Of a DNA stretch of 37,799 nt, positions 1,073 through 23,605 are shown piece after piece. Position 1 is the stretch's first letter. The number at the start of each line of letters is the position of its first letter. This DNA is from Sedimenticola sp. (lineage in GTDB: Bacteria; Pseudomonadota; Gammaproteobacteria; Chromatiales; Chromatiaceae). The translations under genes were made by a program, and so were the position numbers. The stretch lies in contig JAMOMB010000025.1 in NCBI GenBank assembly GCA_027068795.1, positions 1-37,799 of the forward strand, written 5' to 3'. A model generated the notes under the pieces. That model was not told the origin of the DNA and ran no database searches. It was given only the letters and a program-made list of their open reading frames with translations.

Positions 1073-1098
1073 ACACAGCCAATCCTATTCGGCTGTGT
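1073..1098 (+). promoter_or_regulatory. Hairpin in flagellin 2 leader, just before the RBS
   Basis: Perfect 8-bp inverted repeat: ACACAGCC (1073-1080) and GGCTGTGT (1091-1098) with a 10-base loop. It lies in the untranslated leader and ends 5 bases before the Shine-Dalgarno AGGAG (1104-1108). There is no T-tract, so it is not a terminator. A role in mRNA stability or in translational control of flagellin is an inference. Confidence 0.5.
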
Positions 1099-1117
1099 GA
1101 TACAGGAGATCAAAATC

Positions 1118-1951
1118 ATGGCAATGGTAATCAACACCAATGTGATGTCGCTGAACGCCCAGCGTAATGTAAACAAGACCAATGGCCAGCTGGCCACATC
1201 CATGCAACGGCTCTCATCCGGTCTGCGCGTCAACAGCGCCAAGGATGATGCCGCCGGCCTCTATACCATCAACCGCATGACTTCCGATATTCGGGGCCTG
1301 GATCAGGCGGCGCGCAATGCCGCTGACGGCATTTCCCTGGCGCAGACCGCAGAAGCCGCCCTGGGGCAGATCGGTGACAACCTGCAACGTATCCGCGAGC
1401 TGGCGGTGCAATCCGCCAACGGCACGGTAGAGGATCGCACCGGCATGCAGGCGGAAGTGGATCAATTGACGGCTGAAATTCACCGTGTTGTAGGCAGCGC
1501 AAAATTCAATGGTGTGGCGCTGCTGGATGGCACCTCCGGGGCAATCACCTTCCAGGTGGGCCAGGACAACGGAGAGACCATTTCCGTTGCCCAGGGCGAT
1601 ATGACCGGCCTCAATTCCTATGGCGCTACGGCTGGCACCGTGGATATCAGCAGCCAGGCGGCTGCCCAGGCGGTGCTTGCCTCTGGTGCCACCGGTATTG
1701 ATGCGGATATTGATGCTGTTTCCAGCGCCCGCGCCACTTATGGCGCGGTGCAAAATCGCTTTGAAACCGTAATCAGCAGCATCCAGAGTTATTCGGAAAA
1801 CCTGTCGGCTTCCCGTAGCCGTATTCAGGATGCCGATTTTGCCGCAGAGACGGCCAATCTGACCAAAGTACAGATATTGCAGCAAGCCGGCACCGCCATG
1901 TTGGCCCAGGCCAATGCGGCGCCGCAGAATGTACTCTCGCTGTTGCGGTAA
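1118..1951 (+). CDS. fliC: Flagellin (copy 2)
   Basis: Complete 277-residue flagellin, the main filament protein. The N-terminus [17 protein letters not shown] and the C-terminal NVLSLLR are the standard D0 ends that form the filament core and the export/assembly contacts. The variable region (about residues 165-210) is short, as in small polar flagellins. I place the start at ATG 1118 rather than at the in-frame GTG 1097, because AGGAG (1104-1108) sits 9 bases upstream of 1118 and the protein then begins exactly as flagellins do. A sigma28 promoter at 990-1016 precedes it. It is a tandem paralogue of the upstream flagellin, with near-identical 5' sequence and a diverged centre. flaG follows after 72 bases. 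Confidence 0.97.
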
Positions 1952-2466: not shown

Positions 2467-3813
2467 ATGATAACAGCACCCGGCGTTGGTTCAGGATTAG
2501 ATGTGCGATCTATCGTCAACGACTTGATGGCGTTGGAGCGGCGGCCCATGGAGGCGCTGCAGCGCCGCCAGAGCCAGTATGAGGCCCAATTGAGCGCCTA
2601 TGGCCAGCTTAAAAGCACCTTGTCCGGTTTTCAGGATGCAATGAAGGGACTCAGCTCCACAGATGCATTCAAGGTATTTTCCGCTTCCACCAGCAATGAA
2701 GAGGCTCTCCAGGTTTCCGCCGCCAGCACTGCGCCCCTGGGCAGCTACAATGTGCGGGTAGAGCGTCTGGCAGGCTATCACAAGATGGGATCCAGTGAAT
2801 TTGCCAGCACCACTACTTTCGGCGGTGGCGCAGGCGATAGCATTTCAATTCAGGTTGGCGCAGATCCGGCCGACACCATCAGCATTGATTTGAGCAGCGC
2901 CCAAACCCTGGAGGAAATCCGTGATCTCATCAATGATGATGTCAACAACCCCGGGGTCAGCGCCACCGTTGTGAATGGCAATGGCGGCAACCAGAAGTTG
3001 ATTCTGACTTCCGAGGACAGCGGCGCCGCTTCCGCCATGAGCATCTCCTATGGCGGCAGTTTGAGCGCCGCCAGTTTCGGCTTGCAAACATTGAATGACA
3101 TTGGCGGGGATCTGGCGTTGCTGGATGCCGAAATCAGCGTGGATGGCTACACTGTCACCCGATCCAGCAATACCATATCCGATGTTATTCAGGGTGTTAC
3201 ACTGGATCTTCGCCAGGCCCAGCCGGGCGTTGATATCCAGGTGCAAATCGACCGGGACCTGGATGCAGCCAAAGAATCCGTGCAGGCCTTCGCCGATGCC
3301 TACAATGACCTGCGCGGCTCCATCAAAAGCCTGCGCAGCGGCCAGCTCGAAGCCGATAGCACCTTGCTCAGTATTGAGCGGGGTTTGCTCAATATCATGA
3401 ACAGCCCTGGCAGCGGCGGCGTATACAATCACCTGTCGGAAATCGGCCTGAGCATCCAGAAAGACGGCAATATGAGCGTGAATACCGCAAAACTCGAATC
3501 CGCGCTCAATGCTGACTTTTCCGCCGTGGCGGATCTTTTTGCGGATCCCCAGAGCGGCTATGCAAGCCGTTTCGAATCCCTGACCAATAGCTGGTTGGAG
3601 ACAGGAGGTCTCATTGATTCCCGCACGGATGGCCTGGATTCCCGTATCGAGGATCTGGAAGACCGGCAAATCGCCATGGATCGGCGTATGGAGCAAATCG
3701 AGGCCCGCTATTTGAGGCAGTTTTCGGCACTGGATTCCCTGGTGGCAGAACTGCAGGGAACCAGCAGCTTTCTTACTTCCCAACTGGCCTCATTACCCGG
3801 GTCAGGGCAATAA
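2467..3813 (+). CDS. fliD: Flagellar filament cap protein FliD (HAP2)
   Basis: A 448-residue filament cap protein that forms the oligomer at the filament tip and folds incoming flagellin. The N-terminal FliD_N signature (PGVGSGLDVRSIVNDLMALE, from residue 4) and the heptad-rich C-terminus (RIEDLEDRQIAMDRRMEQIE, near residues 394-413) are the expected D0/D1 helices. The middle (about residues 75-300) carries the globular domains. Length is usual for polar flagellates. It has its own sigma54-type promoter at 2404-2419, so cap synthesis could be timed before sigma28-driven flagellin. Its chaperone candidates fliS and fliT-like follow directly. Confidence 0.97.
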   Translation: MITAPGVGSGLDVRSIVNDLMALERRPMEALQRRQSQYEAQLSAYGQLKSTLSGFQDAMKGLSSTDAFKVFSASTSNEEALQVSAASTAPLGSYNVRVERLAGYHKMGSSEFASTTTFGGGAGDSISIQVGADPADTISIDLSSAQTLEEIRDLINDDVNNPGVSATVVNGNGGNQKLILTSEDSGAASAMSISYGGSLSAASFGLQTLNDIGGDLALLDAEISVDGYTVTRSSNTISDVIQGVTLDLRQAQPGVDIQVQIDRDLDAAKESVQAFADAYNDLRGSIKSLRSGQLEADSTLLSIERGLLNIMNSPGSGGVYNHLSEIGLSIQKDGNMSVNTAKLESALNADFSAVADLFADPQSGYASRFESLTNSWLETGGLIDSRTDGLDSRIEDLEDRQIAMDRRMEQIEARYLRQFSALDSLVAELQGTSSFLTSQLASLPGSGQ

Positions 3814-3884
3814 CCAACCCATCAATGACAATTGTGACTGGAGCCCGGTGCATTCTGGCCGGCCGCAAAAAATCTGGAGGAGCC

Positions 3885-4319
3885 ATGAGTCATCCCGCAA
3901 CACATAACCCAGCCAACCACTACAGCCAGGTCGATACCTATACGGGTGTCAATGGTGCGGATTCCCATCGCTTGGTGCTGATGCTGCTCAATGGCGCCCT
4001 GAGTAATATTGCCGTGGCCAAGGGCAGCATTGAAAGACAGGATATTTCCGCCAAGGGAGAGGCAATCGGCCAAGCCATATCCATAGTCAATGGTCTGCGC
4101 GCCAGCCTGGATCTGGATGCCGGTGGTGAACTGGCGGTGAATCTTGACAATCTCTATGACTACATGGAGCGCAGACTCCTGGAAGCCAATATCCATAGTG
4201 AGCCGAAAATGCTGGAAGAAGTATCCGGGCTGCTGCATGAAATCAAGGAAGGCTGGGCGGCGATTCCGCTAGAGGTTCGCACAGGTAGCGTGCAACAAGG
4301 AGTGGCTGGTGCCCCCTGA
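3885..4319 (+). CDS. fliS: Flagellin export chaperone FliS
   Basis: A 144-residue cytosolic chaperone that binds the C-terminal helix of flagellin and prevents premature polymerisation. The family is recognised by the N-terminal region with YTGVNGADSHRLVLMLLNGA, matching the conserved SPhxLixMLydGa pattern, and by the internal segment ISIVNGLRASLDLDAGGELA (INdGLiaSLD in the family). An upstream in-frame ATG at 3825 exists, but ATG 3885 has the strong GGAGGAG (3876-3882) and gives the usual N-terminus. It overlaps the next gene by 11 bases, so the two are translationally coupled. Confidence 0.96.
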   Translation: MSHPATHNPANHYSQVDTYTGVNGADSHRLVLMLLNGALSNIAVAKGSIERQDISAKGEAIGQAISIVNGLRASLDLDAGGELAVNLDNLYDYMERRLLEANIHSEPKMLEEVSGLLHEIKEGWAAIPLEVRTGSVQQGVAGAP

Positions 4320-4704
4320 TTTACAATCAGAAGGAACAGCGCCGAAAGCATCCGGCATGTTAGCGGAGCGTTACCGGGCCTTGCATGCCTTGCTGGATCG
4401 CAGCCTGGAGATGCTGCAGCAGGCCAAAAAGGAACACTGGGCGGAGGTCATACAAACCGGAGCGCAGCGGCAGCGGCTGATCGAGGCTTTTTTTGAACAA
4501 CCTGTAGCGCCTGCGGAAACCGATGAAGTTGCCCTCGTATTGAGAAAGATGCTGCAAGCAAACGAGGAAATCGAAGCCCTGGCGGTGAACAGCCGCGGCG
4601 GCGTAAGCGCAAGCATTGGCTCCATTCAGCAGGGAAGGCGTGCGGTGCTGGCCTATGCGGAAAATACGGGGCCGAACCACAGGATAGCGCCGTCAGGTCA
4701 ATAG
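4309..4704 (+). CDS. FliT-like flagellar chaperone (putative)
   Basis: A 131-residue, largely helical protein starting at GTG 4309 with AAGGAG (4297-4302) 6 bases upstream, overlapping the end of fliS. FliT-type features are the segment MLQQAKKEHWAEVIQTGAQR (about residues 35-54), then a LIEAFF motif, and a C-terminal stretch with MLQANEEIEAL. FliT is the chaperone for FliD and sits at exactly this place after fliS in Pseudomonas-type clusters. Sequence conservation in the family is poor, so the call rests on position, size and this helix pattern. Its last 7 bases overlap the convergent gene on the other strand. Confidence 0.72.
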   Translation: MPPDLQSEGTAPKASGMLAERYRALHALLDRSLEMLQQAKKEHWAEVIQTGAQRQRLIEAFFEQPVAPAETDEVALVLRKMLQANEEIEALAVNSRGGVSASIGSIQQGRRAVLAYAENTGPNHRIAPSGQ

Positions 4705-5189
4705 TTGCTCCAGATCTCGTCTTCCAAACCGTTTTCCCGTGTCCAGACCAGCAGACCAATGGCTGCGAACTTGGCTACCGACATGGCGCCCCGTTTGCTG
4801 CGCTTGCCGCTGGACTGGGACAGGGCCTCCAGTATTTCCTCCCGGTTTGCTTCATAAATCTTGTAAGGTTCAAACGCGCCATCCAGAAGCACCAGCGCCA
4901 CATGGGTCCAATCGCCGTTGGGGTTGAGTTGGCCAATGCGATAGCCCGCCTTCCCCTCATCAAGAATCACCCGGCCCTTGATCTGGTAGCGCCGGCCTTC
5001 GCGCTCGCCTTTTCCCAGCGCATCCACACCGGGAATTCTGGGTTCCAGCAATTCCAGCCCCAACTGCTTGGCTGCATCAAACCGGGCGATCTCCCCCGTT
5101 ACCGGCAGCATCTGCCCCGTAGTGCGGCGAAACTCGGTGGCCAGCCGTCGGGTTTCCGAGATGAGTTTTTCCAGCGCATAAACTGACAC
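4698..5189 (-). CDS. Solitary protein with PD-(D/E)xK nuclease-like motif (DUF6998-like)
   Basis: A 163-residue protein read from GTG 5189, with AGGA about 8 bases before it. It resembles a family of small proteins I know as DUF6998; this is recalled and was not searched. Visible motifs are TGEIA (Glu33), PGVDA (Asp56) and YQIKGR (Gln69, Lys71), in the order and spacing of a PD-(D/E)xK nuclease core. The C-terminal part has RGAMSVAKFAAIGLL (residues 133-147). No signal peptide or membrane helix is seen. It is convergent with the fliT-like gene (7-base overlap) and divergent from fleS, so it is not part of the flagellar transcript. It occupies the slot where fleQ normally stands. Its role is unknown and it could be a cargo gene. 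Confidence 0.6.
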   Translation of the reverse strand: MSVYALEKLISETRRLATEFRRTTGQMLPVTGEIARFDAAKQLGLELLEPRIPGVDALGKGEREGRRYQIKGRVILDEGKAGYRIGQLNPNGDWTHVALVLLDGAFEPYKIYEANREEILEALSQSSGKRSKRGAMSVAKFAAIGLLVWTRENGLEDEIWSNY

Positions 5190-5405
5190 GATGCCATCCT
5201 GTTGTGAGCCATGGGGCGGATTTTCTGTTCAGCACAGGAATATCCCTTATCTTTATACCAGCAGGCAAGAAATATTTTGCTTTTCCCGTTTCCTGGGCAA
5301 TTCTTTGACAGGGTTCACGCAATTGCTCGGGCCAACCCGCGTCAATTCCTTGTCGCCGGAGAAGAGCGCCATCATAACACACTGAAATTACTTGATTAAT
5401 AAATC
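5190..5405. other. Divergent intergenic region without a gene
   Basis: This stretch separates the minus-strand nuclease-like gene from fleS. It is more AT-rich than its surroundings near 5262-5290 (GGCAAGAAATATTTTGC is locally near-palindromic) and holds the upstream region of the fleS sigma54 promoter. I see no believable coding frame, RNA gene or terminator in it. Confidence 0.5.
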
Positions 5406-5421
5406 AGGCATGGAGTTTGCA
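5406..5421 (+). promoter_or_regulatory. Sigma54 promoter of fleSR
   Basis: AGGCATG-GAGT-TTGCA keeps the GG and GC dinucleotides exactly 10 bases apart. It matches the sigma54 consensus at 5 of 7 (-24) and 5 of 5 (-12) fixed positions. Predicted transcription start is near 5432, which lies downstream of the TTG start that gives the longest fleS frame. fleSR is sigma54-dependent in Pseudomonas, which supports the site. Confidence 0.68.
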
Positions 5422-5423
5422 TA

Positions 5424-6671
5424 TTGTTGTATCCAAGTATTGCAAACAACCCGGATATGAGAATGCCTGCAGCAAATTCGCCAACTGCACAGCAACTTGA
5501 AAACGCCTTTGAAGCTTTCAACCAGATTGGCTCGCAACTGGCCAGTTCCTATGGTGAGCTGCAACAGCGGGTGATCAGCCTGACCGAAGAACTGTCCCAG
5601 GCGCGGACGGAAGAATACCGGCAACTGGTGGAAAAAGAGCGGGTGGCGGCGCGCCTGGAAAAATTGCTCCAGGCATTGCCCGGCGGGGTACTGGTGCTCG
5701 ATGAACAGGGAGTGGTTCAGGAAGCCAATCCCGGAGCGCACCAATTGTTGGGCGAGGATCTTGTCCGGCGCCCATGGGATGAAATCGCCGCGGATGCATT
5801 CGTTTCCGGCAGCCGGGAATTGCAGCTACGGGATGGCCGGTGGATCAGTCTCTCCACCAGTCCCCTGGATGGTGGTGAGGGAAAAATTCTGTTGCTTACG
5901 GATGTGAGCGAGGCCCGTCGCCTCCAGGAGCTGCTGAACCAGCATCAACGTCTTACGGTTCTGGGGGAAATGGCAGCCGGCCTGGCGCATCAGATTCGCA
6001 CCCCCCTGGCTTCGGTGCTGCTGTACCTCTCCCAACTGGAAAATGCCTCCCTGGATGACGCGCAACGTCAGCAGTTCGTTACCAAAACCCGGGAACGGCT
6101 GCGCCACATGGAACAGATGATCAACAACATGTTGGCCTATGCCCGGGGAGAATCGAACAAGCACGAATGTTTTCCTCTGAAATGGGTTGTCGATTCCTTG
6201 CTGCAGGTGGTGGAAGACAACCTGCAACAGGCAGGAGGCCAACTGCGCATTTTCAACCAGGCGCCGGATGCCATGATCCGGGGAAACCCCGATGCACTGC
6301 TGGGCGCCCTGACCAATCTGGCGATGAACGCCATCGAGGCATGTGAGGAAAAACCGGAATTGCTGCTGAAAATAGAGCGGGCTGCACAGGGGAATACCAT
6401 CATTTCCCTGCAGGACAATGGCGCGGGCATCAGCAAATCGTTGCAGGACAAGATATTCGAACCTTTTTTCACCACGCGCTCCAGCGGCACGGGTCTGGGC
6501 TTGGCTGTGGTGAAGGCCGTGGTGCAAAGGCATGGGGGGGATTTGAGCATGCAGTCTTCACCCGGCAAGGGAACCGTGGCCAGAATCAGTCTGCCTTCGG
6601 AAAACGGCAACAAGGCTTTACCTGCACATATGAACAGCCGCCAATTGGAAGAAAAAGAGGTGAACAAATGA
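5424..6671 (+). CDS. fleS: Flagellar sensor histidine kinase FleS/FlrB
   Basis: A cytosolic kinase of 415 residues from the longest start, with no membrane helix. It phosphorylates FleR in the flagellar cascade. Order: a helical N-terminus with coiled coil (about 20-80), PAS domain (about 82-165, LPGGVLVLDEQGVVQEANPG), HisKA with GLAHQIRTPLAS (His189), and HATPase_c with N-box NLAMNAIEA, DNGAGI and GTGLGLAVVK. TTG 5424 has GGAG at 5412-5415, but that element lies inside the predicted sigma54 promoter. If the transcript begins near 5432, the true start must be ATG 5457 or 5463, giving about 404 or 402 residues. The start is therefore unsettled. The stop overlaps fleR (ATGA). Confidence 0.93.
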   Translation: MLYPSIANNPDMRMPAANSPTAQQLENAFEAFNQIGSQLASSYGELQQRVISLTEELSQARTEEYRQLVEKERVAARLEKLLQALPGGVLVLDEQGVVQEANPGAHQLLGEDLVRRPWDEIAADAFVSGSRELQLRDGRWISLSTSPLDGGEGKILLLTDVSEARRLQELLNQHQRLTVLGEMAAGLAHQIRTPLASVLLYLSQLENASLDDAQRQQFVTKTRERLRHMEQMINNMLAYARGESNKHECFPLKWVVDSLLQVVEDNLQQAGGQLRIFNQAPDAMIRGNPDALLGALTNLAMNAIEACEEKPELLLKIERAAQGNTIISLQDNGAGISKSLQDKIFEPFFTTRSSGTGLGLAVVKAVVQRHGGDLSMQSSPGKGTVARISLPSENGNKALPAHMNSRQLEEKEVNK

Positions 6672-8023
6672 AACAGAAAGCAGTTTTGATCGTTGAAGAC
6701 GACGGCCCCTTGAGAGATGCATTGAGCGATACTCTCGGCATAGGCGGATACCGGGTGCTGACCGCAAGCGACGGAGAAAAAGCCTTGCAGCAACTGCAAA
6801 AGCATTCAGAAATCAGTCTGGTTATCACGGATGTGCAGATGCAGCCCATGGATGGCTATACCTTGTTGAACACCCTGAAAGTAAAGTATCCCGAACTGCC
6901 AGTGGTGCTGATGACCGCCTATGGCACCATCGACAAGGCGGTGGGCGCCATGCGGGACGGCGCAGCGGATTTTCTGGTCAAACCCTTTGAGGCCGATGTA
7001 TTGTTGAAAATGGCCGAACGTTTTCTGGTGCCGGTGGAAGAGCAGGGCGACGGCGACATGGTTGCCGCCGACCCGGTGAGCAAAGAGCTTGCGCGCCTTG
7101 CGCAACGGGTGGCCAAATCCGGGGCAACGGTAATGATTACCGGCGAATCGGGTGTGGGCAAGGAGGTGCTGGCGCGCTATATCCACAACCATTCCGACCG
7201 CGCCAAGAAGCCGTTTGTCGCCATCAATTGCGCCGCCATCCCTGAAAACATGCTCGAAGCCGTGTTGTTCGGCTATGAAAAAGGAGCATTTACCGGTGCG
7301 CATCAGGCGCGACCAGGAAAATTCGAACAGGCCCAGGGCGGCACTTTGTTGCTGGATGAGATCACCGAAATGGACAAGGGATTGCAGTCAAAGCTGTTAC
7401 GGGTGCTGCAGGAACGGGAAGTGGAGCGCCTGGGTGGACGGCGTATGATCGATCTGGATGTGCGGGTATTGGCCACCAGCAACCGTGACCTGCGCCAGGC
7501 GGTGGGTGAAGGGAAATTTCGTGAAGACCTCTACTACCGGCTGAATGTGTTTCCCCTGGAGTTGCCTCCGCTGCGCAGCAGACGGGAAGACATCCTGCCC
7601 CTGGCAAGAAAATTCATTTATCGGCACCTGCACGGCAAGGCCTTGCCGGAATTGTGCCATGACGCCATGGCCAAGCTGCATCAGTATTCCTGGCCCGGTA
7701 ATGTTCGGGAACTGGAAAATGTCATTCAGCGCGCCCTGATTCTCAAGCATGGTGACCGGATTGCTGCCGATGACATCCATTTTGAAACCATGACGGGCGT
7801 ACAGCCCCCGGCGCCTGCACAGACAAGTGACAAAACATTGAACCTGGTGCAGGAAGAGCGGCTCAATGACGAGCTGAAACAACGGGAGGCAGACCTCATT
7901 CTCACCGCCCTGGAATCCAGCGGCAGCCGCACCGAAGTGGCGCAGAAGCTTGGAATCAGTCCGCGCACCCTGCGCTACAAGCTGGCCAAGCTTCGTGATG
8001 CGGGAATCCCCTTGCCGGCGTAG
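6668..8023 (+). CDS. fleR: Sigma54-dependent response regulator FleR/FlrC
   Basis: A 451-residue NtrC-class activator, partner of FleS, that turns on sigma54 promoters for basal body and hook genes. Receiver domain about 1-120, with acidic pair Glu10/Asp11 and phosphoacceptor Asp55 (ITDVQMQPMDG). AAA+ domain about 130-370, with Walker A GESGVGKE (159-166), the sigma54 contact loop GAFTGA (206-211) and GGTLLLDEITEM as Walker B. A Fis-type helix-turn-helix lies at the C-terminus (about 405-447). All key residues for phosphorylation, ATP use and sigma54 contact are present. It overlaps fleS by 4 bases. Likely targets in this window are the promoters of fliE, fliK and fliL. Confidence 0.95.
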   Translation: MKQKAVLIVEDDGPLRDALSDTLGIGGYRVLTASDGEKALQQLQKHSEISLVITDVQMQPMDGYTLLNTLKVKYPELPVVLMTAYGTIDKAVGAMRDGAADFLVKPFEADVLLKMAERFLVPVEEQGDGDMVAADPVSKELARLAQRVAKSGATVMITGESGVGKEVLARYIHNHSDRAKKPFVAINCAAIPENMLEAVLFGYEKGAFTGAHQARPGKFEQAQGGTLLLDEITEMDKGLQSKLLRVLQEREVERLGGRRMIDLDVRVLATSNRDLRQAVGEGKFREDLYYRLNVFPLELPPLRSRREDILPLARKFIYRHLHGKALPELCHDAMAKLHQYSWPGNVRELENVIQRALILKHGDRIAADDIHFETMTGVQPPAPAQTSDKTLNLVQEERLNDELKQREADLILTALESSGSRTEVAQKLGISPRTLRYKLAKLRDAGIPLPA

Positions 8024-13707: not shown

Positions 13708-16700
13708 TCAGGATTTCTTCTCCGAAGCGATAGAAAGATGGGAAACTTTTGCACGGCTTTGCTCCGGCAAGAAGCAGGTTCTGGCCAGTGCCGGAATCTT
13801 TTCCGGAAGAACAGGGCGGCTGAACAGGAAACCCTGCACCATGTCGCAGGCGATATCCTTTAGGACTTCCAGCTGCTCTTCCTCTTCCACACCCTCGGCA
13901 ACCACCACATGCCCCAGTGCATGGGCCACATCCACGATGGTTCCCAGCAATATGCAGGAGCTCTCGTCCTTCAACATATCGGAAATAAAGATACGGTCGA
14001 TCTTGAGGCAATCAATAGGCAGTGATTTCAGCGAAGACAGGGATGAATAGCCTGTTCCAAAGTCATCCATGCTGATTCTGACCCCCAGCTTGCGAAGCTG
14101 TTTGAAAATACTGAAATCATCCCCGGTGGTCTGCACCACGTTTTCCGTGATTTCCAGTTCAAGGTTGGTCGGGGAAAGACCGGTTTGTTCCAGCACATCC
14201 TTGACGGTTGTAAGCAAGGCGGGATCATTGAAATGCAGGGGTGAAATATTTACTGCTATGCGAAATTCCGGCAAGCCAAGCATTCTCCACTTGGCTGCCT
14301 GATTGCATGCGGTTTTCAACACCCAGTTTCCCAGTGGCTTGATCATGCCAATGCGTTCCGCCACTTCAATGAACTGGGATGGAGGAACCAGACCCCGTTC
14401 CGGGTGCTGCCAACGGATCAATGCTTCCACGCCTACCATTCTGCCTGTTCCCAGGTCGATTTGCGGCTGGTAATGCAGTTCCAGCTGGTTACGGTCTATG
14501 GCGAGACGCAAATCCTGCTCCATTTGCAGGCGTTGATCTGCTTCAATCGTATGTCTTTTCTGGTAGAAAGCGTATCTGTGCTTTCCTTCTTTCTTCGCGG
14601 CGTACATGGCGGAATCCGCTGCCTTGAGCAGGGACTGAAGGTCTTCGCCATCCTGAGGAAAATGGGCGATTCCGATGCTGCAGCGTGGCCGCAGTTCCCG
14701 GGTAAGCAGTTGCAGGGGACGATTGATCTCTCTCAAGCTGCGATTTGCCACCTCGGCCGCATCGCGGCGATCCGATATGTTATCCACGAGAATACAGAAT
14801 TCATCGCCACTGAGGCGGGCAATGAAATCTGTTTCCCGCAAGATGCCTTGCAGGCGTTGGGCAACGATTTTCAGCAACTCATCACCGGTGTCATGTCCCA
14901 GGCTGTCATTGATATCTTTGAATCCATCCAGATCCAGGTAGAGCAGGGCAAATCGTTCCTCACGGCGCTGGGCAGCGCGGATGACGTCTTCCACATGTTT
15001 GTAGAAATATGCGCGGCTTGCCAGTCCGGTTAGCTCATCTGAATAGGCCAGTTGGCGAATTCGGCGTTCTGTCGCCCGTTGCTGGGTAATGTCTTGTACT
15101 GTGCCAAGAATCACATGGCTCGCATATGGCGCCATACCCAGCTCCTGATGAACGGTGATAGTGGGGCGACCATTGACCACGAGGCGATAGTCAATGGGCC
15201 TCAGGGGGGCGCCATCGGCGGTGGCGGTAATCGTATTCCGCAAATATTCCCGGTCTTTGGGATGAGTCCAGGCCAGATAGTCATCCAGTGACAGGTTATG
15301 GTTGTCCGGATCCACTCCCAGCATGGAAGCAAGGTTTTCGGAAAGCATGAGCCGATCTTTGGCCGAGTCCCAGCGCCAGTATCCAAGGCCGGCAATGCGC
15401 TGTGCGCTGATCAATCGTTCCTGGTTTTCCTGCAAGGCTTTTGCATCCCGGCTGGCGCGCAACTGAAAGCGGATGCGCTGCAGCAAAATAGGGTAGTTGA
15501 CCGGCTTGAGAACGAACCCTGATGCGCCGGATTCAAATGCGCGATCCACGGAATCGGTATCCTCCAGACCGGTGACCATGAGTATGGGGGTATCCTGCAA
15601 ACCTGGCAGCCGCAGCAAACGCCGGCAGACTTCAAAGCCGTCCATGCTTTCCATCATGGCATCCAGCAACAGCAGATCAGGTTTTTTCCTCGCTGCCAAG
15701 GTGATGGCGTCTGCTCCGTTTTCCGCTTCGATAACCTGATAGCCGGCTGCACCAAGGGCCTCTTTCGTCGCCAAGCGAAAATCAGGGTCGTCATCCACCA
15801 ACAGTATCAGTTCCCTGGCGGGTTGCGAGGCGTTGTTGGCGACAACCAGCGCTTTGGTTTCTCCCTTTAACTCGAGTTTCAAGGCTTCCATGGCTGGCGT
15901 CAGGGCTTCTTCTATGGAATCAATCAGTGTCGCAGCCAGCGACAAGTCGTTGTTTCCCGCCGCCTCTTCCAGTTTTCTGCATTGATTTGAGAGCGCTATT
16001 GCACCCAGATTGGCGCTAGCAGATTTCATGCTGTGGGCAAGAAACTGCAATTGCTCCGCATCCTCGTTTTCCAAGGCTTCACGCAGTTTTTTCATGCCCT
16101 CCGGTGCTTGATGCAAAAAGTGATCCACCACCTTCTTCAATACATTGCGACCGGTGGTCTGTTCGAGGGATCGCAACTGCTGCAATACAGCCGGATTCAA
16201 CAAGCTGTTTTCTTCAGATTGCGTAGATTCTTTCCTGGCCGTTTTTTCCGCTCGCACGGGCTTTCTTTCAGGAAGCCATTGTTGCAGCAGGGCCGCCAAT
16301 TGCTGTTGTTTGAAGGGTTTGCTCTGGTAGCTGTTCATGCCGGCGGCCAGACAGCGTTCCTTGACCCCTTTTTGCACATCGGCAGTCAGAGCGACAATGG
16401 GTGTGGGACTGCGACCTTGGGCTTGTTCCAGTTGGCGAATTTTTCCGGTGGCGTCAAAACCGTCCATTCCCGGCATGTGGCAATCCATCAGTATCAGGTC
16501 ATACTTTGCACGGGTAAACGCCTGTACTGCTTCTTGTCCATCCTCGGCCAGATCAACTTTGCAGCCCAGGGCGATGAGCATGCTGACCGCGACCTCCTGG
16601 TTCACCTTGTTGTCTTCAGCCAGGAGGATTTTGCCTCGTATTTTTGTCGGGGCATCAGCATCGGAAGATTGCAGGATGCTTTTCTTTTCCATTACCCCGC

Positions 16701-18648
16701 ATAAGCATTCCAGCAGTTGCTGTTGGCGTACCGGTTTTTGCAGGTAGCAGGCGATGCCAGAATCCCTCATGGTAATGGAGTCTATATCGACATCTGCGGA
16801 ACTCAGGGTAACCATGCAGGGCGTGGGAATATTCTCATCCTGTTGGATATGCAGGGCCAGCTCCAATCCATCCATTCCCGGCACATGCCAGTCCAGCAGC
16901 ACAACCTGATAGGGATCGTTGGACAACGCCGCCTGATGAAGCCGCTCCAGCGCTTCCTTACCAGAGGCTGCGCAGCCATTCCGCATGCCCCATGCCATTA
17001 CCTGGTTGCGCAGGATTTCCCGGTTCACCGGGTGGTCATCCACGATCAACACCCGGCTGCCTTGCAGGACGCTTGTCTGTATCGACTGGTGTTTTCTAGC
17101 CTCGGCGGTGGCAAGTGCAATACTAAACCGGAAATTGGCGCCTTCGCCGGGGGTGCTTTCCAGTTCCAGCTGGCCACCCATCAGGGTTACCAGGCGCTTG
17201 GCTATTGCCAGGCCGAGGCCGGTGCCTCCGTAACGCCTGGTAGTAGAACCATCGGCTTGACTGAAAGCATCAAAGATTTTTTCCTGCTGTTCTGGAGCAA
17301 TGCCAGGGCCGGTATCAGAGACTTCGAAAGATACCCGCTGCTTGCCGTCTTCCAGCTTTGTCGCCCTGACCCAGAGCCGCACCTCGCCACGCTCGGTAAA
17401 TTTGATGGCATTACCCAACAGGTTGATCAGTATCTGTCGCAGCCGTACAGCATCACCACTGACTCTGTCAGGAAGATCCGGCGGCAAGTTGGGCACCAGC
17501 TCCAGTCCTTTGCGGTGCGCTTGACCGGCCATCAACTCCAGTGTGTCTTCCAGCATCTCGCGCAGATCAAAATCTTCGTTACTGAGCTGAAGTTTGTCGG
17601 CCTCGATTTTGGAAAAATCAAGAATATCATTGATGACCCCCATCAAGCTTTCCGCAGATCGATGGGCAATATCTGCCAGGCGGCGTGTATGTACGTCCAG
17701 GCCACTATCCAGGAGTAATTCGGTCATTCCCATCACGCCGTTCATCGGTGTGCGGATTTCATGGCTCATGGTGGCAAGAAATTCACTCTTGGCGCGGCTG
17801 GCTGCTTCCGCGACTTCTTTGGCGTTCTCCGCGGCCTCCTTGGCTTGTCTCAAATCCCGCGTACGTTCTTCCACTTTTTGTTGCAGTTCTTCCTGATAGG
17901 AGGCCAGCTTGTTTTCCCGTTCATCCAGTTGCTCCAGCATATAGTTGAAGTTGTTGATAATGGTGCCGATTTCATCATTGTCCCCGGCTTTCAGGCGAAG
18001 CTGAAAGTCCTGGTTGTCCGAAACCTGCTGCATGCCTTCCACCAGTTCACGGATGGGTGTGGAAATGCGCCGATGCAGCCGGTTGGCCAGAAGATACACA
18101 CCCCCCATGATGAGCAACCAGAGAATGGAGACAATCAGCAGATATTCCTTGATGCGCTCATACAGCAAGTTCAAATCGAACTGGATATGAATGTAGCCAA
18201 GGTGGTCGCCTTTGAGGAAAATCGGTTTGAATGTATCGACATGTCTGGTTTCGATGCGATGCTGTGCTGTTGTGGCTTTTTCCCGGATCAGGCGGGTGAG
18301 CCATAACTGGCTTTCCTCATCGATAGCAGGTGTGGCAGGCGTAGGCCGGTGATAGTGCGCAAACACAGTTCCGTCAGGGAGGTACAGGGTGGCTGTTTCC
18401 ACGGAAGCTTCCGACTGCAGGGAATCAAGCAGTTGATTTGCAATTTTATTGTCATCAAAGGTAAGGGCGGCGGAGGAATTGGTGGCAATGAAATCCGCCA
18501 ATACCTCGGATTTTTCCACCAGGTTCTGCCTGTAGCTGATGAACTCCAGCGCCAAAAAAGCATTTGAAGCAATCAACAGCGCAATACCACAGGTCAGAAG
18601 AATCATTCGCCGGAGTCTGTGCGCGATAATCAAATCCTTGGTATTCAT
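13708..18648 (-). CDS. Giant hybrid kinase-phosphorelay-GGDEF-EAL protein with CHASE8-like sensor
   Basis: A 1646-residue inner-membrane signalling protein. Order: TM1 (15-36), periplasmic sensor 37-168 resembling CHASE8 of YfiN/DgcN ([22 protein letters not shown]), TM2 (169-189), HAMP (190-242), coiled coil, HisKA with [10 protein letters not shown] (His296), HATPase (Asn413, DTGPGI 445-450, GGTGLGL 474-480), REC1 (Asp586), REC2 (Asp722), HPt (His872 in [13 protein letters not shown]), REC3 (Asp996), PAS (about 1084-1190), GGDEF (SGDEF 1280-1284, I-site RETD 1271-1274) and EAL (EAL 1408-1410, [16 protein letters not shown] 1528-1536, EGVE). Every phosphorelay and c-di-GMP residue I can check is kept; only the first Gly of GGDEF is Ser, which some active cyclases also have. 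It could therefore both make and degrade c-di-GMP. ATG 18648 overlaps the yfiR-like stop and has AAGGAT before it. Confidence 0.93.
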
Positions 18649-19247
18649 GGCGTATCCTTGTTCTTTTTTGTATGGACGACAATTGCCAGCTCCAGTAACG
18701 GAGCGGCGATTTTCAGACCTGCTGCCTGGGCGGCATAGGTGTTTATCTTGAAACCGATATGTTTTTGTCCGAGAACAAACTGAATCATGCCGCCGTTCTT
18801 TGCAAAATCACGGGCGTCGCTGACGGTAAGAATGGGCTGGTTCTCAAATGAACGAAGAATTGTTGTCATAAATGGTCGTTTCGAGTCGCTGATGAACAGC
18901 ATCTGGCAGTCGCCATCCACTCCGGTGGAGTGTGTATAGCGATGAATGGTGATAGGTAGGCCGTTTACTTTGTGTTCTTCCAGAACATCGAGACTTCTGC
19001 CAAAATCGTCTCTACCCAAAATGCAGAGCTTGAAATTTTCCGGTCTTGTTTTTCCCATAGCAGGTGGCCACTCGATAAAGCGGCTCAACTTGTACAGCAA
19101 TGCTGCCTTGAGCTTGTATTCTGATGATGTCGATGTTGGGCCGGTGGCGTTGGCGTGCAGGGCGGCGGCAAACAGCGCCAGTAAAATACAACCAACCCGC
19201 TTTACCCGGGCTGGTTGAAGCAGAAGATGTTTGCTCAAAAGTCCCAA
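18645..19247 (-). CDS. YfiR-like periplasmic regulator (DUF4154 family)
   Basis: A 200-residue secreted protein with a signal peptide (hydrophobic core about 18-30, likely cut near HANA-TG). Family marks are [19 protein letters not shown] (43-61), [36 protein letters not shown] and the end [15 protein letters not shown]. YfiR proteins sit in the periplasm and inhibit the CHASE8 domain of the cyclase YfiN. The mature part keeps two cysteines, Cys75 and Cys114, 39 residues apart, the same spacing I recall for one disulfide of Pseudomonas YfiR; a second pair is absent. The start is TTG 19247 with GGGGGGA just upstream. It overlaps the receptor gene by 13 bases and the kinase by 4, so all three are one operon. 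Confidence 0.88.
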
Positions 19248-21298
19248 CGAATCCCCCCATAGATCGAACGCTCGACTTCCGTGGGAGATATCAGGTTCTC
19301 TCCTACAAACTCCAGGTGATGGTCATCCAGCAGGTTTTGCGCCACCAGGGAAAATTCCAGCGTTTTGGTGGGATGCCAGGCAAGCGAGGCATTCAGGCTG
19401 ACATAAGCGGGAACGGGCATCTGTACGGAATAACTGGGCCGTTCCAGATCGCCGACATAGTAGACCCACAGGTCAAACGCCACCTGATTACCCAGATCCA
19501 TCATGGAGCGCACGGAAAACTGATGCTTTGGAGTTGCGGTTTCGCTGGTATCGTTTTCGTTATTTGGAAAACTGCTGTCGCTGTTCAGGGAGCTGGAGAT
19601 TTCAATAAAGCTGTAATTGGACTGCAGGCGCCACCATTCCAGCGGTCGCCAGTCCATGGCCAGTTCCAGGCCGTAGCTGTGTGCGACAATAGTGTTGTCA
19701 AACAACACGTCAGACAGGGGATCCTGCACGTCAATTTTTTCAAAACTCTGCAGGTTTTCATAGTCATTGTAGAACACCGCCAGATCCAGGGAGAGGTTCT
19801 CTTTCGGCTGCACCCGATATCCTGCTTCATAGGCCAGGAGCTCTTCGGATTGAAATTCCTTCGTGCCCAGGCTGTAAACCACCTTGGGCGTGAAAGCCGG
19901 TGGCGCTGGAGCAATTACGGCAACGATGCGTGATCCGTTCTCCAGCCGGGAAGGGGTTCTCACTGCTCTGGAAATCGCCCCCCAAAAGGTGCTGCGCTCG
20001 TTCGGCAACCAGGCCAGGCGGATACTGGGCTGCACTTCCAGGCCCGTAAAATCATTGTGCTCGAGTTTGGTGCCCAGGGTGAGGCGCAGGGTGTCCGGAA
20101 CCAGCTCTATCTCGTCTTGCAGAAAAGCACTGTACAGATTGAGCGCACGGCTATCCGGCAGAAAACTGGCTACAAAAGTATTGCTGAAATGATCCTGGAT
20201 GCGTCTATAGCCCAATCCCCAGACAATTTCATGACCGGAAACTCCATGATATTGATGTTGGAAATCAATATCCACAGTATCGTGTTTCTGGGTTAAAAAC
20301 TCCTCTGCACGCTTGGAATGATCGATATAGAGCTGAAGGGATGCCTCACTGGACGCAGAGAAGCGGCGGTTCCATTTTCCCAGCAGATTCCAGCCAGATG
20401 ACTCGATGCTGTCCGGCACATCCGTAGCCAGAAAGAAAGGCGCATAGACAGCATTTGCCGGATCAGCAGGATCCTTCCACAAATTGATATTTTGATTTTC
20501 CTCTGCCTGGTAGGCATCTCCGTGGATTGTCCAGCGGTCAGTCTCGCCAAACTGCCCGTCCGCACGGAAGCCGCCACGCAGACTTCGCCAGTTGTCCCCG
20601 CTGCCTTTTCCCGTATTGCGGGCATAGGAATCATCCCTGTCGTTGTACTTTATATACATGCGCGCCGCAGTGCCGTTGTGCGTTTCCACGCCGTAGCGGA
20701 CTCCGGCGAAGGCTTTTTCCTCATTTCCCGCACCGAGGCTCAACAGGCCGCCTTGGGTCTGACTTGCCTCCCTGGTAATAATATTGATGACACCATTGAC
20801 TGCATTCGCCCCCCAGACGGTAGCGCCTGGCCCGCGGATGACTTCAATGCGCTCTATATCTTCCAGCAAGGTGTCCTGAACATCCCAGTAAACGCCGGAA
20901 AATGACGGGTTGTACACCGTCCTCCCATCAATCATCACCAGCAGTTTATTGGCGAACTGATTGGCGAAACCACGGGAACTGATTGCCCATTTGTTGGCGT
21001 CTATACGGCCAACCTGAATGCCTGGCGCCAGGCGCAATGCTTCCGGAATGCTGGTGACGCCGGAACGCCGGATATCTTCCTGGGTGATGACAAAAACCGC
21101 GGCAGCAGTTTCATTGAGAGGCTGCTTTTTCTTGGAAACCGAGGTCACCTCCATGGAGAGCAAATCCGCCAAAGGCATGTCGATGTAGTCTTCGATGGAC
21201 TCATGGGCTTGAAGTGAAGATGCCGGCAACAACAAAAGCAGCGCCAGCCCCAGAATGGAGTGACCGCTATCGCCGCAGACAATGCTTGTAGTTCTCAC
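19235..21298 (-). CDS. TonB-dependent outer-membrane receptor
   Basis: A 687-residue outer-membrane receptor, first gene of the minus-strand operon. Signal peptide about 1-31, TonB-box-like MEVTSVSKK (49-57), and a plug domain (about 58-165) with IPEALRLAPGIQV and the conserved ERIEVIRGPGATVWGANAVNGVINIIT segment. A beta-barrel follows, ending in the C-terminal aromatic (GGIRWDF). There is no N-terminal STN domain, so it is not a FecA-type transducer for an anti-sigma factor. The start is GTG 21298, with only a weak GGTGA before it. The substrate cannot be told from sequence. Linkage to YfiR and the kinase suggests a signalling role, possibly replacing the outer-membrane partner YfiB. Confidence 0.93.
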   Translation of the reverse strand: MRTTSIVCGDSGHSILGLALLLLLPASSLQAHESIEDYIDMPLADLLSMEVTSVSKKKQPLNETAAAVFVITQEDIRRSGVTSIPEALRLAPGIQVGRIDANKWAISSRGFANQFANKLLVMIDGRTVYNPSFSGVYWDVQDTLLEDIERIEVIRGPGATVWGANAVNGVINIITREASQTQGGLLSLGAGNEEKAFAGVRYGVETHNGTAARMYIKYNDRDDSYARNTGKGSGDNWRSLRGGFRADGQFGETDRWTIHGDAYQAEENQNINLWKDPADPANAVYAPFFLATDVPDSIESSGWNLLGKWNRRFSASSEASLQLYIDHSKRAEEFLTQKHDTVDIDFQHQYHGVSGHEIVWGLGYRRIQDHFSNTFVASFLPDSRALNLYSAFLQDEIELVPDTLRLTLGTKLEHNDFTGLEVQPSIRLAWLPNERSTFWGAISRAVRTPSRLENGSRIVAVIAPAPPAFTPKVVYSLGTKEFQSEELLAYEAGYRVQPKENLSLDLAVFYNDYENLQSFEKIDVQDPLSDVLFDNTIVAHSYGLELAMDWRPLEWWRLQSNYSFIEISSSLNSDSSFPNNENDTSETATPKHQFSVRSMMDLGNQVAFDLWVYYVGDLERPSYSVQMPVPAYVSLNASLAWHPTKTLEFSLVAQNLLDDHHLEFVGENLISPTEVERSIYGGIRWDF

Positions 21299-21721: not shown

Positions 21722-23605
21722 ATGCAAAACCCACTTCTCAACTTGAGACTGCAGCCAGTAGCTGATGCGGAAATGCACCAGGCCACCGGAGCGCCAAGCG
21801 GACTTACTGCCTTGTTCAATCAGGAAAAACTTGCCGAAGGCGAGCAGCGCCCCAGCTTTTCTGGAACCTTTCAGCAGGTCGTTTCCGATGCCGCTGAAAT
21901 GCAGACAGCCGAGTCTGTGGTTCATCAGGAATTGCCGACTGCCGGCAAGCCCTTGCCGGAACTCCCGGACCTGGAAGCCCCGGACCCGTCAGTGGAAACA
22001 CTCGCATCCCAGATGGAGGTGGTTGAAGCCCCTGTATCTGTATCACCGCCGGCAAAAATCGACTTGGCGGATGAATACAGGCTTCCAGCGCAAAAAATTG
22101 ACGTCAGAGCTGCCGCATTGGGGCCAAATATTTCTCCGCAGCCTTCTCCAAGCGAGCCGCCCGATTCTCTACTACAGGAATGGCCCGCGCCTTCAAACAG
22201 CGCTGCAGGGAAAGAGTCATTGAACCGGGCGGCGGCCACCACCATTTCAACGGCTCCCGCAGCACCTGGCCAAACGCCGCTGGAGGCAAAGAATCTGCTG
22301 GAGTCGGCAGCGATGAAGCCTTTGTCTACAGAGGAAAACCTCCTGGCCAGGCAATCTCCCCCGGTTGCAAATGGAAAGGAGGCAATCCCCAGGCAGCCGG
22401 CCCCGGCTGACGATGAAGTCGTTCCTTCGAGATTGCAGGCCCGGGATGCTTCGAATCTCCCGCCGGCTGCTGTCTCCCGCCCCGCGGCGAGGGGGGCGGA
22501 TGGCATGGCTGAATCCCTTCTTGCCCCGGCTCCACACACCCGCCAAGGCCACGTCGCACCGGAGCAGCTTGGACTGCGTTTCACCGAAGCGCAAAAAATC
22601 ATGGGTTCCCGATCTTCGGTGATTGCCACGGAGGGGGGGATGAAAGAAGCCGCTGGCGGTGAAGCGCCAAGACCTTCAGCAGAAAGCCGCAGCCTCGCCG
22701 CTTCTGAAGTGGTACGACAGCAATCGGTAGTTGCAGAAAACGGCTATCGCGCACAATCCGTGGCTGCCAAATCCACAGAGCTGTCCGCGGCAGCCTTGGC
22801 CCTTGCAACCGCTGAAAACCGCAGTACCACAGCATCGCCGGAACTCCCGCGGCAGCCGTTTGCGGCCCTTCAGCAGCCAGCGGAGCGACAGCGTCTGACG
22901 CCAAGAGCGGAAAAGCAGCCAGGCCTCACCCAGGCGCCGGTAATTTCCCCGGCCATGTTGCAAAAATCAATGGAAACACAACGGCAAGCAGTTCAGGTAG
23001 CAGGCGTTGGCGGCGCAACCACTCCGGCTGACGGCTTGGCTGCCGCGCGCGCCGAAACCATTGCCGCAGCCACGCCGGTGCAGGCGTCTTTACAGGCTGC
23101 GAGCAGTACTTTCCCGCCACTTCCGGCAAGCGCTGCAACGCCGCCGCCGGCCACCGGAATGTCGAGCATTTCTGCGCCGGTGGGTCATGCCGCCTGGGAG
23201 CAGAGTATGGCCAGACAGGTATTGCAGGCCGGGCAGAACCAAATGCAGAAACTTGAGATTCGGCTGAATCCGTCCAACCTGGGAGCATTGAATGTACAGA
23301 TTTCTGTAGACGCCGACACCACCAGCATCCTATTTTCCAGCCACCATGCCCTGGTTCGTGATGCAGTGGAAGGGGCGATTCCCCGTTTGCGGGAAATGTT
23401 CAACACCAGCGGCATGAATCTTGGCGATGTCGATGTTGCAAACCAAAGCGCCGCGGAACAGCAGGGGCGGCAATCTTCCCGACAGTATCAACCGGGACAG
23501 ATACTGGGCGATACAGGTTCCGGGGCCCAGGCGGAACCGCTGGTCGATGGCGCCAAGAATACCCCTGTCATTCCTACAGAGCAGTTGCTGGACTATTACA
23601 TCTAA
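21722..23605 (+). CDS. fliK: Flagellar hook-length control protein FliK
   Basis: A 627-residue secreted molecular ruler that stops hook growth and switches export specificity through FlhB. The long N-terminal and middle part (to about residue 480) is low-complexity and rich in Ala, Pro, Glu and Gln, as expected for the ruler. The conserved C-terminal Flg_hook domain (about 490-595) contains QKLEIRLNPSNLGALNVQIS, which carries the family's LxPxxLGxlxv pattern, and ends with REMFNTSGMNL. The start ATG 21722 has GGAGTAAGG (21712-21720) before it. Length is variable in the family and this one is long. It has its own sigma54-type promoter. Confidence 0.95.
   Translation: MQNPLLNLRLQPVADAEMHQATGAPSGLTALFNQEKLAEGEQRPSFSGTFQQVVSDAAEMQTAESVVHQELPTAGKPLPELPDLEAPDPSVETLASQMEVVEAPVSVSPPAKIDLADEYRLPAQKIDVRAAALGPNISPQPSPSEPPDSLLQEWPAPSNSAAGKESLNRAAATTISTAPAAPGQTPLEAKNLLESAAMKPLSTEENLLARQSPPVANGKEAIPRQPAPADDEVVPSRLQARDASNLPPAAVSRPAARGADGMAESLLAPAPHTRQGHVAPEQLGLRFTEAQKIMGSRSSVIATEGGMKEAAGGEAPRPSAESRSLAASEVVRQQSVVAENGYRAQSVAAKSTELSAAALALATAENRSTTASPELPRQPFAALQQPAERQRLTPRAEKQPGLTQAPVISPAMLQKSMETQRQAVQVAGVGGATTPADGLAAARAETIAAATPVQASLQAASSTFPPLPASAATPPPATGMSSISAPVGHAAWEQSMARQVLQAGQNQMQKLEIRLNPSNLGALNVQISVDADTTSILFSSHHALVRDAVEGAIPRLREMFNTSGMNLGDVDVANQSAAEQQGRQSSRQYQPGQILGDTGSGAQAEPLVDGAKNTPVIPTEQLLDYYI

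Follow-up and report, generated by a model that had tools for sequence, protein, structure and literature searches.

The flagellar locus

The window, a 37,799-nt stretch that is the whole of contig JAMOMB010000025.1 (C25) in a 2.29-Mb draft genome (84% complete) of a marine Sedimenticola, carries part of a flagellar gene cluster. The genes fliS (3825-4319, + strand; Pfam 5.8e-38) and fliT (4309-4704, +; Pfam 1.3e-12) are followed by a gene in reverse orientation, here called P1 (4698-5189, - strand), and then by genes for a FleS-type sensor kinase with HisKA and HATPase domains (5424-6671, +) and a FleR-type response regulator with a sigma-54 interaction domain (6668-8023, +). P1 starts with GTG and encodes a nuclease-like protein of predicted BisI/PvuII fold with 163 residues, in which Glu33, Asp56 and Q69-I-K71 (motif codons 4977-4985, - strand) were confirmed as originally predicted, and Pfam likewise confirmed the gene order fliS-fliT-[P1 reversed]-fleS-fleR. 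The ORF map and Pfam show P1 converging with fliT, the two genes sharing 7 bases at their 3' ends, and diverging from fleS, with fleR beyond; since it is reversed after fliS-fliT, it forms its own transcription unit.

An orthologue was found in 14 of the 15 genomes of the genus, the present one included, always without an internal stop and always adjoining fliS (14/14). With dN/dS values of 0.05-0.19 in 15 pairs from six congeners, P1 is a real conserved gene under purifying selection. The gene on its other side is more variable, being fleS in nine of the 14 genomes, part of a cluster resembling that of the MSHA pilus in three and unsettled in two (G005 and G014), in which the contigs end beyond P1 and the sequence present has no fleS match. 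In G008 and G013 the place of fleS is taken by genes for an AAA ATPase and an MshL-like secretin (245.2 and 246.3 bits, just below the NCBIfam cut-off of 250.2), accompanied in G013 by a TPR protein, and G011 was assigned to this type by ORF similarity, as it has the same ATPase-like ORF.

A sigma-54-like -24/-12 site, AGGCATGGAGTTTGC (5406-5420, +), lies just upstream of fleS, too near to its listed TTG start, so that the in-frame ATG at 5457 is probably the true start. Such a site occurs at the corresponding place in all nine loci of the genus that reach fleS, although loose matches of this kind are common (37 on both strands of the window). Similar sites in G008, G013 and G011 were left out of this count because a gene other than fleS follows P1 there. 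The replacement of fleSR beside P1 by the pilus-like cluster with its sigma-54-like site, at 3150-7446 of locus L202 (G013) and 4502-7181 of L203 (G008), marks a sub-group of the genus.

Elsewhere in the window, two tandem flagellin genes lie at 39-761 and 1097-1951 (+); the contig start cuts off about 24 positions from the beginning of the flagellin N-domain of the first. Upstream of fliK (21722-23605), the fli cluster is broken by three minus-strand genes (13708-21298); they encode a 1646-residue hybrid protein of CHASE8-HAMP-histidine kinase-receiver-Hpt-GGDEF-EAL architecture, a YfiR-like protein and a TonB-dependent receptor, and together look like a c-di-GMP signalling module.

Fold and family of P1

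AlphaFold2, run on seven sequences, yielded a best model with pLDDT 80.0 and pTM 0.77, and four further models that were poor (pLDDT 44.5-52.0). The P1 model contains an alpha-beta-beta-beta core (helix 31-43, strands 46-52, 55-58 and 67-74), and in a Foldseek search its first 11 chains all belonged to Eco15I and NhoI, followed by PvuII. VIA-align placed the same three enzymes at the top, i.e., NhoI (Z 13.3 over 132 residues, 4.2 A), Eco15I (Z 12.4 over 123 residues, 4.2 A) and PvuII (Z 10.5 over 122 residues, 4.0 A), with the first other row at Z 8.7, in a list from which the absence of a family does not exclude that family. The PD-(D/E)xK nuclease fold that had been predicted from the sequence is thus supported by the model and by both structural comparisons, and a non-nuclease fold did not emerge.

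Sequence profiles point the same way. The PADLOC mREase_II model PDLC03209 matched P1 at 4.5e-23 and also matched all 15 orthologues scanned, and a profile built from P1 orthologues alone found Eco15I at 6.9e-7 and NhoI at 1.7e-5. This is the fair profile, as the Eco15I score of 8.1e-18 from a second profile is inflated by the inclusion of L039, a close relative of BisI type that itself matches Eco15I at 3.3e-25. A single-sequence phmmer search of P1 against the PDB gave scores at chance level only (NhoI E=0.47). In Pfam, the sole match of the window protein was DUF6998 (PF22522), below the cut-off with 16.8 of 27 bits, and this family matched 13 of the 15 P1 orthologues at E<=0.1 (best 3.8e-10); we found nothing on DUF6998 in the open-licence papers searched.

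By fold and homology P1 is almost certainly a relative of the BisI-type restriction enzymes. NhoI and Eco15I, which belong to this family of 5mC-dependent GCNGC endonucleases, resemble it in topology, in the xD and QxK motifs, in the arginine that follows QxK-x and in size. The fold is also common to P1 and the type II restriction endonuclease PvuII, which acts on unmodified DNA and is paired with a methyltransferase. Unlike PvuII, P1 has no adjoining methyltransferase gene in the flagellar and yoaA contexts read.

Active site and predicted activity

Conservation was counted over 54 non-redundant P1 orthologues, with L038 and L039 left out. The E-D-Q-K core at positions 33, 56, 69 and 71 is complete in all 14 sequences of the genus and in 45 of the 54 orthologues, while nine have lost part of it; individually, K71 is present in 54/54, E33 in 53, Q69 in 50 and D56 in 49. 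D38, R73, R84, G86, Q87, W94, G134 and W149 are invariant (54/54 each). All 14 genus sequences contain the xD ... (D/E/Q)xK motif of the PD-(D/E)xK superfamily, in the form of D56 and Q69-I-K71. According to PMC11347163, NhoI and Eco15I have the corresponding motifs WD/AD and QVK/QIK plus an essential glutamate in helix alpha1, and an arginine of the external methyl pocket, Arg84, occurs in about half of the BisI family.

NhoI Glu50, essential in Eco15I, aligns with P1 residue 36, which is arginine in 14/14 genus sequences and glutamate in 21 of the 54 orthologues. The counterpart of P1 Glu33 is NhoI Asp47 (in entry numbering, which runs two below the chain index); lying one turn from residue 36, Glu33 may stand in for Glu50. 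The invariant R73 aligns with the pocket residue Arg84, and NhoI Arg101, of the internal methyl pocket, aligns with a variable position, P90. The profile alignments stop before or at the (H/R)(V/I/T/M) motif, which falls in a low-confidence part of the model.

The structure, the profile matches and the QxK motif support the fold well and make nuclease activity likely, but the arginine at the Glu50 position tempers the latter. P1 probably cuts DNA, and the chances that it would act on modified DNA are evenly balanced. We hypothesize that P1, presumably as a homodimer, would contact double-stranded DNA with its surface near R73, R84, Q87 and W94, and that K71 and a metal bound by D56 and Q69 would cleave DNA bearing a foreign or aberrant modification. 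P1 would then be a resident nuclease for restriction or for surveillance of the DNA. It does not take the place of FleQ, whose gene lies elsewhere in the genome. Defence or DNA processing, the class of function suggested by the original prediction, is still the likeliest for P1, and as a whole we give the reading of P1 as a resident, solitary nuclease of BisI-type fold an equal chance of being right or wrong.

The conservation pattern could also mean that P1 is a domesticated restriction fold, a DNA- or protein-binding or structural factor in which cutting is no longer needed. The residues R73, R84, G86, Q87, W94, G134 and W149 are better conserved than the catalytic D56 and Q69, glutamate at position 36 is kept by a minority of orthologues, and the synteny of the gene is fixed. 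This explanation is nevertheless unlikely in view of the invariance of K71, the near-invariance of E33 and the intact core throughout the genus.

The yoaA locus and the distribution of P1

Two samples were searched, one of 141 relatives, including the genome under study, and one of 369 evenly drawn Gammaproteobacteria. P1 was matched in 59 of the 141 relatives, among them G054, with a short remnant that was scored as absent, and G078, in which the gene is cut by the contig end and was scored as present. In the class sample it was matched in 106 of 369 genomes, or 104 without the fragments of G054 and G182, with a single match in all but two of the 106. Outside the genus, P1 lies directly upstream of yoaA and co-directional with it in 40 of the 44 P1 genomes of the relatives sample; of the rest, G087 has two genes, with LemA and GIDE domains, between P1 and yoaA, and G107, G121 and G137 have P1 without a neighbouring yoaA. 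The usual order, within reach of the fetched stretches, is an mrcB-type transpeptidase gene, a TPR lipoprotein gene, P1, yoaA and tsaB, and yoaA also adjoins P1 in 26 of the 28 loci from the class sample outside the genus, several of these genomes being shared between the samples. In all 14 Sedimenticola yoaA loci (G003 is not among them) the corresponding site is empty, the TPR gene being followed by yoaA. The window protein is 40-60% identical to its non-genus orthologues in matches longer than fragments, and by sequence P1 is a member of the yoaA-linked orthologue group. In the open-licence papers searched we found nothing on yoaA together with mrcB.

Two loci of this kind deserve mention: in L077 (G137) and L078 (G107) P1 stands directly by tsaB, with the usual intervening yoaA missing. 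In L076 the short remnant of G054 (about 2944-3114, in yoaA orientation) lies directly upstream of yoaA, and this genome is without flgH.

The adjacency to yoaA raises the alternative that P1 is a DNA-repair nuclease partnering the YoaA helicase, which would unwind a damaged nascent strand for P1 to cut, so that the flagellar place would be merely the result of a move. Besides the frequent co-directional neighbourhood, the published model of YoaA action (PMC11981726) calls on an unnamed nuclease. Such a partnership is distinctly unlikely, as G107, G121 and G137 have P1 but no full YoaA match (only weak DinG-like pieces in G137), two of these three having P1 by tsaB, and yoaA often occurs without P1 (a YoaA match in 118 of the 141 relatives, twice as many as for P1). 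In Sedimenticola, moreover, the two genes are far apart (1.50 vs 2.27 Mb in G007).

The usual picture of modification-dependent restriction enzymes is one of mobile weapons that vary from strain to strain. P1, by contrast, seems to be a chromosomal representative of the same structural group that has been in place for long, its neighbours mrcB-TPR-yoaA-tsaB being stable in many families of Gammaproteobacteria, and this points to a standing role. In its stable chromosomal synteny across many families it differs from the BisI homologues, whose genes are described as solitary and transferable (PMC4926085).

History and mobility

Pairwise distances of P1 correlated with those of YoaA in 39 non-genus genomes (r=0.86) and in 13 genomes of the genus (r=0.86), and less so when pooled (r=0.61). 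The P1 tree joins the genus to G095, from another family, and to G087 (support 98/95), and the genus's own family (27 rows) forms a separate single group (99/83), whereas in the YoaA tree the genus falls within that family. This different placement in the two trees suggests that the P1 gene of the flagellar cluster was acquired from another lineage, although the AU test allows the alternative as well (p 0.11); any such transfer is old, since the gene occupies the same place in all 14 congeners that carry it.

No match was found in 50,697 phage records with the orthologue L031 as the query; among viral contigs no P1 match was confirmed, and the L039 relative as the query found none. Distant cousins were found on 26 plasmid records, with 33-42% identity and annotated as hypothetical among the 20 matches listed, and together with L038 they form a separate group in the P1 tree (100/100). 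Of two plasmid cousins, L197 and L198, one lies beside IS transposases (Cupriavidus) and one near ABC-three-component genes (Rhizobium). The proposal that P1 is a moron does not agree with its stable chromosomal neighbours, the lack of a match in the phage records and its constant position beside fliS.

P1 might instead be a horizontally acquired defence gene that was inserted in the flagellar cluster by chance, as could be argued from the discordant trees and from the existence of plasmid cousins. We regard this as very unlikely: the AU test did not reject a P1 clade uniting the genus with its family (p 0.11), the plasmid cousins group apart, and the position is the same throughout the genus.

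The missing fleQ

The original prediction started from the absence of fleQ between fliT and fleS, and this absence is real for the slot and does not extend to the genome. A full FleQ of 509 residues is encoded on contig C90 (16724-18250; 388-1917 of locus L002), which bears out the expectation that fleQ could be elsewhere; its best PDB match is FleQ of P. aeruginosa (E=2.4e-140, residues 26-503). Two further candidates, L001 and L003, were rejected as response regulators of 209 and 207 residues beside histidine kinases, leaving L002 alone as FleQ. At E<=1e-100, FleQ was found in 12 of the 15 genomes of the genus; the exceptions are G003, G006 and G012, and G012 is also without FliS and FlgH. 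In the five congeners with both genes on one contig (G007, G008, G009, G010 and G013), fleQ lies 22-25 kb from P1. Its neighbours were read in two genomes (own, L080 2585-8251; G010, L081 5596-11286) and include genes for PilZ and GGDEF proteins in both, with a MotA-type protein gene nearby in G010. The fliT-fleS gap contains no fleQ remnant, and the only strong FleQ tblastn match in the window is FleR.

The synteny of the gap was compared in 20 flagellar regions from other genera, six from other families and 14 from the same family. The order fliS-(fliT)-fleQ-fleS-fleR was found in four of the six other-family regions (L103-L106), so fleQ fills the slot there and is not generally unlinked among relatives; in L102 fleQ-fleS-fleR follow 9 kb further on, and in L107 there are none within the fetched stretch. 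Within the same family, fleQ, fleS and fleR were found in none of the 14 stretches fetched after fliS. The Sedimenticola locus therefore resembles the Pseudomonas-type cluster in that fliS-fliT and fleS-fleR flank the gap, and differs from it in having P1 in the gap and fleQ 22-25 kb off in congeners, beside PilZ, MotA and GGDEF genes.

With fleQ in the genome and the sigma-54-like site before fleS in 9/9 loci, fleSR need no unknown activator, contrary to one of the suggested options, and a false lead is thus removed. A role of P1 itself as a stand-in for FleQ or as a regulator of fleSR, for which only its position in the slot speaks, is practically untenable given that Pfam detects no DNA-binding regulator and no AAA+ domain in P1, that most congeners encode FleQ, and that three of them have P1 by fliT with fleSR absent from the stretch read.

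Co-occurrence with flagella

In most species the P1 gene is away from flagellar genes, but its distribution follows theirs. In the class sample flgH was found in 98 of the 104 genomes with P1 vs 99 of the 265 without (odds ratio 27), and among relatives in 55 of 58 vs 28 of 83. Six class genomes with P1 have no flgH, among them the complete single-contig genome G119. Canonical FleQ, i.e., a match at E<=1e-120 plus the truncated ORF of G021, was found in 52 of the 58 relatives with P1 vs eight of the 83 without, a count that is a post-hoc grouping because canonical FleQ was defined after the scores had been seen.

On a YoaA tree with 104 tips, which covers 104 genomes and leaves 37 of the 141 relatives outside, a model of dependent evolution of P1 and flagella was better than an independent one (LR 40.2). 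For comparison, the LR was 5.9 for photolyase and 1.6 for catalase, the two genes run as controls, and did not exceed 12.8 in 40 null simulations. In a model that allows losses only (LR 27.9), the rate of P1 loss was 12.7 without and 0.32 with flagella, although in these rate models one large P1-less clade, partly flagellated, weighs heavily and some fitted rates are at their bounds. Independent pairs on supported branches gave a median p no lower than 0.0625 for flgH and 0.03 for FleQ. The P1 loss in G012 is no independent evidence, as the whole flagellar cluster was removed there.

The correlation of P1 with flagella and canonical FleQ leads to a specific and unexpected hypothesis, and in the open-licence papers searched we found nothing on this subject, going by their listings, that joins modification-dependent restriction with flagella. 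We tentatively propose, as a rather unlikely addition to the reading of P1 as a resident nuclease, that this restriction-fold protein is functionally tied to motility, being kept or lost with the FleQ-type flagellum and drawn into the flagellar cluster in Sedimenticola. P1 could protect flagellated cells from phages that use the flagellum and have modified DNA, or it could have a DNA task in cells controlled by FleQ and c-di-GMP. A shared lifestyle may also be the cause of the correlation. One flagellated clade of the same family is without P1 (G018, G032, G036, G041, G044, G046, G062, G070 and G083); in its genomes there is no more than a FleQ-like activator whose match begins at the AAA+ domain (E about 1e-106 to 1e-110) and which may be another flagellar master regulator.
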